Source of the DNA: Opitutia bacterium
GTDB lineage: Bacteria; Verrucomicrobiota; Verrucomicrobiia; Opitutales; Opitutaceae
DNA: 64,000 nt
Assembly (NCBI GenBank): GCA_003142955.1
Contig: PLOH01000142.1
Coordinates: 38,308-102,307 of the forward strand
Reading direction: 5' to 3'
The position numbers and the translations under genes were made by a program. Positions 6,274 to 20,960 of the stretch are shown in pieces (position 1 is the stretch's first letter; each line of letters starts with the position of its first letter). The notes under the pieces are model-generated. The model was not told where the DNA came from. It saw only the letters and a list, made by a program, of their open reading frames with translations, and searched no databases.

Positions 6274-7617
6274 ATGACCGCACCACCGCCCAACATTCTG
6301 TGGATTGTCACCACGCAATGGCGCGCCCAGGCCACGGGTTACGCCGGCGATCCCAATGCGCGCACGCCCCATCTCGATGCCTTGGCGGCGGAGTCCGTCA
6401 ACTATGCGCAGGCCGTGACGCCACATCCGTTCGGCCCCTTTGCCCGGGCTGCGATGTTGACCGCGGTCCCTTCGCCGGAGAATGGAGTGCGTGATTATTT
6501 CGATCCGCTCCCCGGAGAGGCGCGGACCATCGCGGATCAACTGCGGATGCGCGGGTATGCGACGGCCTTTTTTGGCAAATGGCATCTCTTTCAACGTGAT
6601 TCGCAGGCTGACCTGGTCGGGCCGGAGCATGCAAAGATCGTGGTTCCTCCCGAACGACGCGGCGGGTTCGGATTCTGGGAGGGATTTGAAAGCGGGTTTC
6701 TCCTGAATGATCCATGGCTGCACGGAACGCGGCTGCCCGAGCCGGCGCCGTTTGTGGGATACCAGTCTGACGTCATCTGCGACCGGGCGGCGGCGTGGAT
6801 GCGTGAGACCGGAGAGCGGAAACCGGAGACCGGGGAGTGGAGACCGGAAATCGGATACCGGATACCGGGGAGCGGAGAGCGGAAAGCGGATGCTGGGGAA
6901 GCGAAATCATCTCTCCGGTTTCCGGTCTCCGCTCTCCGAAATCGACCGTGGTTTTGTGTCGTAAGCCTCGAGCCGCCGCATCCGCCCTATGACGCGCCGG
7001 TCCCGGGTGGCGGAACCGAATGGAGACCGGAGGCGATCGTACTGTCGCAAAATGTCCCGCGTGGTGGTGACGTGGAAACAATCTCCCGGCGTGAACTGGC
7101 CGGCTACTACGCTCACGTGGAGGCGACTGACCGGGCGATCGGCCGATTGCTCGCCGCGGCGCCACGGGAAAACACGGTGGCGGTTTTTACGTCGGTCCAC
7201 GGCGACATGCATGGAGCCCACGGACTGTTCCGCAAGGGCTGGCCGCATGAGGAAAGCGTGCGCGTCCCCTTGCTCGTGCGTGTTCCGGGCGCCGCGGGTG
7301 GAAGGCGCGGGATGCGGGATCCGGCGCTGGTGTCGCTGGTCGACCTGTCCGATCTGACGTTGCGCTGGGCCGGAGGCGAAAGCCCGGCGGTTGAAGGGAA
7401 GTTCCAGAGGATCTCGATGCCCAGCGTGGTGCGGTTGCCCCGCCAATGCGACCGCGGGTGGCGCGGCGGCCGCACGCTCACCCGCAAACTCGTGCTGGCG
7501 GCGAACGGGGATCCGTGGCTCTACTTCGACCTGGAACGGGATCCCGGCGAGGAGATAAATCTCCGGGACGATCCGGCGCGGGCGGCGGAGATGGAGGCCT
7601 TTCGACGGCAGCTGTAA
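6274..7617 (+). CDS. Sulfatase-fold protein lacking catalytic and metal residues (probable pseudoenzyme)
   Basis: A 447-residue protein of the type I sulfatase/alkaline phosphatase-like fold: NILWIVTTQWRAQATGYAG, RTPHLDALAAESVNYAQAV, AFFGKWHLFQ, VVSLEPPHPPYD, and AVFTSVHGDMHGAHGLFRKG. Aligning by eye to active members, the Cys of the C-x-P-S-R formylglycine motif is Gly54 (PFGPFARAAMLT). The N-terminal metal-binding Asp pair is Thr13-Thr14, and the Asp of the D-H-G motif is Val308. It therefore cannot work as a normal sulfatase. No signal peptide is seen. Residues about 178-223 are an inserted low-complexity segment encoded by a palindromic repeat (6805-6942). It may be a dead gene kept open, or a binding protein. 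Confidence 0.8.
   Translation: MTAPPPNILWIVTTQWRAQATGYAGDPNARTPHLDALAAESVNYAQAVTPHPFGPFARAAMLTAVPSPENGVRDYFDPLPGEARTIADQLRMRGYATAFFGKWHLFQRDSQADLVGPEHAKIVVPPERRGGFGFWEGFESGFLLNDPWLHGTRLPEPAPFVGYQSDVICDRAAAWMRETGERKPETGEWRPEIGYRIPGSGERKADAGEAKSSLRFPVSALRNRPWFCVVSLEPPHPPYDAPVPGGGTEWRPEAIVLSQNVPRGGDVETISRRELAGYYAHVEATDRAIGRLLAAAPRENTVAVFTSVHGDMHGAHGLFRKGWPHEESVRVPLLVRVPGAAGGRRGMRDPALVSLVDLSDLTLRWAGGESPAVEGKFQRISMPSVVRLPRQCDRGWRGGRTLTRKLVLAANGDPWLYFDLERDPGEEINLRDDPARAAEMEAFRRQL
6805..6942. repeat. Purine-rich palindromic repeat inserted in frame in the sulfatase-like gene
   Basis: The plus strand shows degenerate tandem copies of a 7-10 nt unit (variants of GAGACCGGA, GAGAGCGGA, GATACCGGA) from 6805 to about 6895. 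The complementary run CTCTCCGGTTTCCGGTCTCC follows at 6911-6930 and continues to 6938. The right part can pair with the first tandem units to make a long imperfect hairpin. It interrupts the protein between AAAWMR and RPWFCVVSLEPPHPP, two stretches that are normally close in sulfatases, and its length keeps the frame. Confidence 0.7.
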
Positions 7618-20619: not shown

Positions 20620-20960
20620 GGAGACGCGACCGCGAAGGGAGAAGGAAGACGGAAACTGGAAAGGGGAGAGTCCAAGGCGAATTGGAGAATAAGTAAAGAG
20701 CCAGGGATGTGCTGGAGACTTCGGCGCCGGGGGCCTCAGCGAGCGCGACCAGCCGGGTGAATCACAGGGCGCTCAACGTGTTCCACCATCCGGGCTCGCG
20801 GTTTTTAAGCCGGCGCACGGCGGAAAATCCTCTTGCGGATCGGGTAGCCGAGCGGCCCGCCCCCGGCCGATCTGGCCGCGGCAAGAGCAGATACGTTTAT
20901 GAGAGAAAGACGATCTCTTCCGTTCGCCGGGCGGACATCCTGTGCGCCGAGGGTTCCGGG
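20620..20960. other. Intergenic stretch upstream of coaX, no gene recognised
   Basis: These 341 bases lie between the coaX start and the 3' end of the kinase pseudogene. The part next to coaX (about 20630-20710) is purine-rich on the plus strand (runs such as GGGAGAAGGAAGACGGAAAC). The rest is GC-rich without a coding frame of good composition. I found no tRNA-like T-loop, no terminator and no convincing -35/-10 pair. It must hold the coaX promoter if coaX is not read from upstream. Confidence 0.5.

Follow-up and report, generated by a model that had tools for sequence, protein, structure and literature searches.

The window, i.e. the whole 64,000-nt stretch of DNA analysed here, lies on a contig of 102 kb; the draft genome comprises 4.29 Mb in 158 contigs. 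In this window, a gene for a sulfatase-fold protein reads through a repeat in which degenerate tandem heptamers are followed by their reverse complement. The features of the locus are as follows.

6274-7617, plus strand: host gene for a sulfatase-fold protein of 447 aa (Pfam PF00884), an ORF reading through the repeat
6797-6899, plus strand: purine-rich arm of about 13 degenerate heptamers (GGANASC), from Tandem Repeats Finder (TRF; periods 7 and 35), a profile scan (106 bits) and the unit layout
6805-6939, plus strand: coding span of added residues 178-222 (the family's variable loop), from orthologue alignments and AlphaFold2 pLDDT
6900-6911, no strand: spacer of 12 nt between the arms
6912-6938, minus strand: pyrimidine-rich arm of four heptamers, the reverse complement of the purine-rich type, from TRF, the inverted repeat, the profile scan (38 bits) and the unit layout

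Host gene and layout of the repeat

The host protein matches PF00884 across residues 6-367 of its 447 aa (E 1e-30), and those of its orthologues that carry names belong to Opitutia/Opitutaceae MAGs of the Verrucomicrobiota. Residues T13, T14, G54 and V308 are invariant across 31 orthologues. We take TT at positions 13-14 to replace the DD usual in sulfatases; G54 presumably stands at the place expected for the nucleophile Cys/Ser (GPFAR versus C/S-x-P-x-R), and V308 presumably replaces the Asp of DHG. Judged from these residues, the protein looks like a pseudo-sulfatase.

TRF found a period of 7 (11.3 copies) at 6805-6883, a period of 35 at 6805-6891 and another period-7 run at 6912-6938. The purine-rich arm is in 7-nt register with the host gene's own TGGATG codons at 6796, and the units of the other arm, read on the minus strand, are GGAGAGC GGAGACC GGAAACC GGAGAG. 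The two-unit pattern GGADASSGGADASS occurs six times in the window against 0.07 expected, always inside 6811-6937. The ORF has no stop within the repeat and the frame is kept. TRF, the inverted repeat and the ORF thus confirm an earlier note on this DNA, which described degenerate tandem units and then their complement, in frame in a sulfatase-fold gene. The extent given there, 6805-6942 with about 46 added residues, was right as to the in-frame gain but has to be redrawn: the array spans roughly 6797-6899 with the second arm reaching 6938, and the net gain is about 40-44 residues (a segment of 64 residues here versus 20-26 in orthologues without the insert).

The purine-left, pyrimidine-right asymmetry and the potential to form a hairpin, both pointed out earlier, were borne out. 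The inverted arms at 6810-6837 and 6911-6938 (28 nt) show 89% complementarity. The RNA fold of the segment has a z-score of -4.0, with an equally stable fold in 0/200 shuffles, and its DNA fold is also far more stable than those of shuffles. A search of Rfam gave no match above the curated gathering score, only sub-threshold look-alikes of miRNA hairpins, and a reading of the segment as a structured RNA was rejected as no Rfam family was found. Elsewhere in the window, a short and weak GGA-periodic run at 20644-20669 (profile score 25.5) is possibly a decayed array of the same heptamer family.

The same loop in orthologous proteins

The loop was compared in 100 orthologue segments, defined between the conserved GYQ and PHPP motifs; the comparison genomes are draft MAGs. 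Most segments without an insert have 20-26 residues and others reach 94. Distant orthologues do not have residues 178-222 or thereabouts, so the segment is not native to the protein family, as had been proposed. AlphaFold2 gave residues 181-220 a pLDDT of 41-56; the helix before them (164-180) and the strand after them (226-232) are well modelled. Disorder is predicted for the insert.

An insert at this site was found in 6/6 genomes of the genus (the window genome and five congeners) and in many other Opitutaceae genera. Its presence throughout the genus is what would be expected if the segment were a native functional part of the protein there. We regard this as very improbable, because most orthologues lack the segment, its peptide sequence and length (49-73 residues) are not conserved even among the congeners, the model confidence is low at the insert, and the same DNA repeats stand in unrelated genes and frames. 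Since all congeners have an insert at the same position, a clean insertion event with its target duplication could not be delimited. The proposed comparison with orthologues therefore gave the length difference and not the exact ends: the orthologues without the insert are too divergent, and no empty site is close enough, for defining a target duplication.

What recurs at the site is the period and not the sequence. Among 30 distinct inserts of at least 28 residues, lag 7 was the strongest in 22 (p 3e-14 against 1 in 8), and the loop is occupied again and again by differing units: GGAATGC in L051, GGAAGGC in L199, an AAATCTG-like unit in L221, GAGGGGC in L046 and a CCAAACG-like unit in L048. 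On a tree of 82 orthologues, computed with the loop segment left out, the heptamer label switches at least 14 times (three of these changes are imposed by strong branches) and the six congeners group as a single clade; the change counts alone do not separate gain from loss. From these label changes and this clade, the insert is old within the genus and recurrent elsewhere in the family.

In one orthologue (L045, in G020), the sulfatase loop holds a TCGGG..CCCGA palindrome, which reads RSGFSPD, and not heptamers. The same palindrome replaces a heptamer array at two loci (L138 and L140) in G002 and G005. On these sequences, different repeat families occupy the same permissive sites.

Dispersed heptamer arrays in the genome and its genes

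The repeat is dispersed across its own genome. BLAST with the segment gave 37 matches, and a three-unit pattern with up to two mismatches gave 208, compared with three for a reversed-pattern control. The pattern matches group into about 34 elements, a count based on the pattern and BLAST searches together with 20-kb samples. The earlier idea of a single inserted palindrome therefore gives way to one of about 34 dispersed heptamer copies, whose arms are independent and whose spacer can be native coding DNA. Extending the search to relatives, as had been suggested, found arrays in congeners and other genera, often made of other units.

The unit consensus is GGANASC, with A, G or T (seldom C) at position 4 and C or G at position 6. 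Arms typically follow the scheme nGANACC (GGANASC)n GGANAG with four to five units (28/52 arms; range 3-15). The outer unit often lacks the first G, as in CGAAACC and TGATACC. The loop-side unit is typically GGANAG: G stands at position 6 in 32/51 arms compared with 14/102 interior units (p 1e-9). The arm order is fixed, with the purine arm first in 14/14 two-armed elements. The same architecture is seen in genomes of two other genera (G080 and G088), with further close opposite-arm pairs convergent in 6/6.

Arms are not better matched to their own partners than to arms of other elements (21.5 versus 21.1 of 26; permutation p 0.14). Selection for pairing inside an element was rejected on this ground, and as far as their sequences go the two arms behave as independent arrays. 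Different elements have unrelated spacers. One of these spacers consists of native DNA that can be aligned in congeners and encodes a hydrophobic stretch, with arrays on either side. Unit strings of 3-4 were not common to different loci above chance, so recent copying of whole arrays was also rejected; unit pairs were mildly in excess (p 0.02).

These properties bear on the possibility of a mobile palindrome of the RPE, MITE or REPIN type, moved in trans by a transposase, which landed in the sulfatase gene. Such an element would be dispersed and palindromic, would lie between genes as well as in frame within them, and would have a patchy distribution over genera, consensus and architecture staying the same, all of which was observed; Y1 transposases are present in nearly all Opitutaceae searched. 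However, no full-length element is conserved, given arms of 3-15 units and unrelated spacers, one of them native, and single-arm elements are common. A terminal signal such as GTAG is absent and no target duplication was found. Genomes that lack GGA arrays (G009, G012, G013, G017 and G023) have Y1 genes too. We consider this origin unlikely. A GTAG-REP/RAYT system was rejected outright, as the units have no GTAG and Y1 genes do not track the presence of arrays, in agreement with the earlier remark that the repeat does not look like a normal IS or a GTAG-type REP. Heptamer arrays at two loci (L088:3000-3058 and L090:2989-3047), one of them at a contig end, are flanked by some 50 nt of almost identical sequence, which may be the end of an IS next to the arrays.

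Long ORFs contain about half of the elements in frame, and several arrays fall between Pfam domains. The residue positions below were computed from element and ORF coordinates.

E2 acyltransferase, first: array at residues 149-205, between the E3-binding and catalytic domains
E2 acyltransferase, second: array at residues 145-212, between the lipoyl and E3-binding domains
PutA: array at residues 468-488, between Pfam domains
E1 dehydrogenase: array at residues 367-392, between Pfam domains
ABC transporter: array at residues 311-323, between Pfam domains

A few arrays are inside a Pfam domain match (SNF2, ProA-like and MOSC_N). The five main units are stop-free in all six frames, which would allow arrays to persist in genes, and the stop-bearing unit GGATAGC is depleted (p 0.02). 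A single ORF of 744 aa for IspG (GcpE), at L077:8163-10397, has two separate in-frame heptamer elements.

Turnover, related repeats and origin of the arrays

At the GspE-GspF junction (L292 and its orthologues), every congener assembled there has a heptamer array with a unit of its own, e.g. CTGCCTC, GGAGTCA or AGAATCC. Lengths differ by whole units: the GspF linker of G002 is longer than that of G004 by 21 nt (three units), and other arrays differ between these two genomes by 7 and 35 nt. In G000, G001 and G003, the GspF linker has no repeat and is about as long as in G002. Within the family, the exact GGANASC pattern is unevenly distributed, being abundant in G000, G002, G005, G015, G080, G083 and G136 and absent from the congeners G001 and G003. 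G004 and G088 also count among the rich genomes, and G020, G025 and G059 among the poor ones. In random samples of G024 (400 kb), lag 7 clearly leads with 10 arrays of many unit types and none at lags 5, 10, 11 and 13. In those of G000 (502 kb), lag 7 ties with lags 6 and 12 at four arrays each, with one in a Markov control.

It is possible, though we hold it to be rather unlikely, that the arrays are binding sites of a DNA- or RNA-binding protein that touches GGA every 7 nt, and that selection maintains convergent pairs at any site where the host can bear them. The unit has fixed and free positions, the loop-side unit and arm order are defined, and arrays are retained at the same loci in congeners; long unit strings in common would not be expected under site-by-site selection, and none are seen. 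Substitutions between G002 and G004 gather at positions 4 and 6 of the unit (24/174 versus 22/450, p 5e-4), a suggestive result that is biased because the arrays of both genomes were found by the pattern. On the other hand, the unit consensus at one locus differs between species, the exact pattern is wholly absent from some congeners, and many arrays lie in coding linkers of unrelated housekeeping genes. We know of no protein that binds GGA-periodic arrays.

Dispersed heptamers have been described in other phyla, and our literature search found no paper on heptamers in Verrucomicrobiota. The GGGAATC heptamers of Xanthomonas (Rehm et al. 2015, PMC4692102) are genome-dispersed and degenerate, form 70-75 convergent pairs with one array per strand and prefer four units. 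In a sister species, 83% of the repeats are found at the corresponding position, usually with the single or paired type preserved; they are mostly intergenic and have G-quadruplex-forming GGG tracts. The repeats studied here share with them the dispersal, degeneracy, convergent pairs, about four units and conservation of position. They differ in that GGANASC has GG but no GGG tract, about half are in frame in ORFs, a loop-side end unit is typical, and units turn over between species. Geobacter metallireducens has 49 copies of four-heptamer elements with the consensus GGGACCG, between and within genes, and in the same genome short tandem repeats also form pairs of sites on opposite strands, a variable distance apart; the heptamer elements were proposed to be regulatory RNA elements or regulator sites (PMC2700814). 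Tandem heptamers in genes and between them are common to both systems, but the unit and the phylum are different, and the in-frame Geobacter copies come without an orthologue comparison.

The TAACTGA direct repeats of Beggiatoaceae are near-perfect and mostly intergenic (PMC4679880). Period 7, many loci and a patchy distribution are shared with them, whereas the present units are degenerate at fixed positions, form inverted pairs and are often coding. As far as can be taken from the citation in that paper, heptamers are the most abundant class of long SSR in most genomes, and 7-nt polymerase slippage has been proposed (Mrazek 2007, cited in PMC4679880). Rickettsia palindromic elements (RPE), of 105-146 nt with conserved sequence and terminal inverted repeats, are tolerated in frame in conserved protein genes (PMC2229807). 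The present repeats likewise lie in frame in such genes (sulfatase, E2, PutA, E1 and IspG), but they have no conserved full-length element and vary in length by 7-nt units. By these analogies, the segment is best read as a variant of the known, poorly understood dispersed heptamer repeats of the Xanthomonas and Geobacter kind.

We consider it probable that the segment represents one of the copies of a dispersed heptamer-array element that expands by whole units, is tolerated in linkers and is a near-neutral passenger in the sulfatase. Arrays would arise and grow in 7-nt steps via slippage or unequal exchange, perhaps seeded by codons such as TGGA, and would spread to other loci by a copying step. 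The arms often stand as convergent pairs around an arbitrary spacer, purine arm first. With main units open in six frames, arrays that keep the frame (21-nt steps) might be tolerated as disordered linkers, and the hairpin would be a by-product of the paired arms. Several findings do not fit this easily. Slippage alone does not account for a single consensus and a single arm order across some 34 loci, and copying is not seen directly, as strings of 3-4 units common to loci are not above chance. No target duplication, donor copy or trans-acting gene was found. The GspF linker arrays stand in for repeat-free native sequence rather than being added to it, and a few arrays are within Pfam domain matches. 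A more distant prospect, to which we give little weight, is a dedicated Opitutaceae process, either an enzyme or a mode of replication, that writes or reshapes arrays of 7-nt period; it would set the period and paired polarity and not the unit sequence, so that units turn over at fixed loci and disordered linkers keep being seeded into proteins.

Among long simple repeats, heptamer arrays have been described as the most common in many bacteria. One protein loop, followed over 100 orthologue segments and repeatedly occupied by period-7 arrays of differing sequence, and one genome with dozens of same-consensus arrays that have a polarity and typical ends and often lie in protein linkers, make the origin of arrays by slippage, copying or selection testable in close strains. 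They also point to a route by which DNA repeats could supply disordered linkers to conserved proteins.

Two further repeats were observed in the genus. A separate repeat of about 111 nt (L086:11085-11195, contig C58 of the window genome) has at least 40 copies in that genome and some in G003, and is unrelated to the heptamers. A stretch of about 55 nt (L086:14438-14493) has more than 10 dispersed matches in the congener G001 and is apparently a repeat amplified there.
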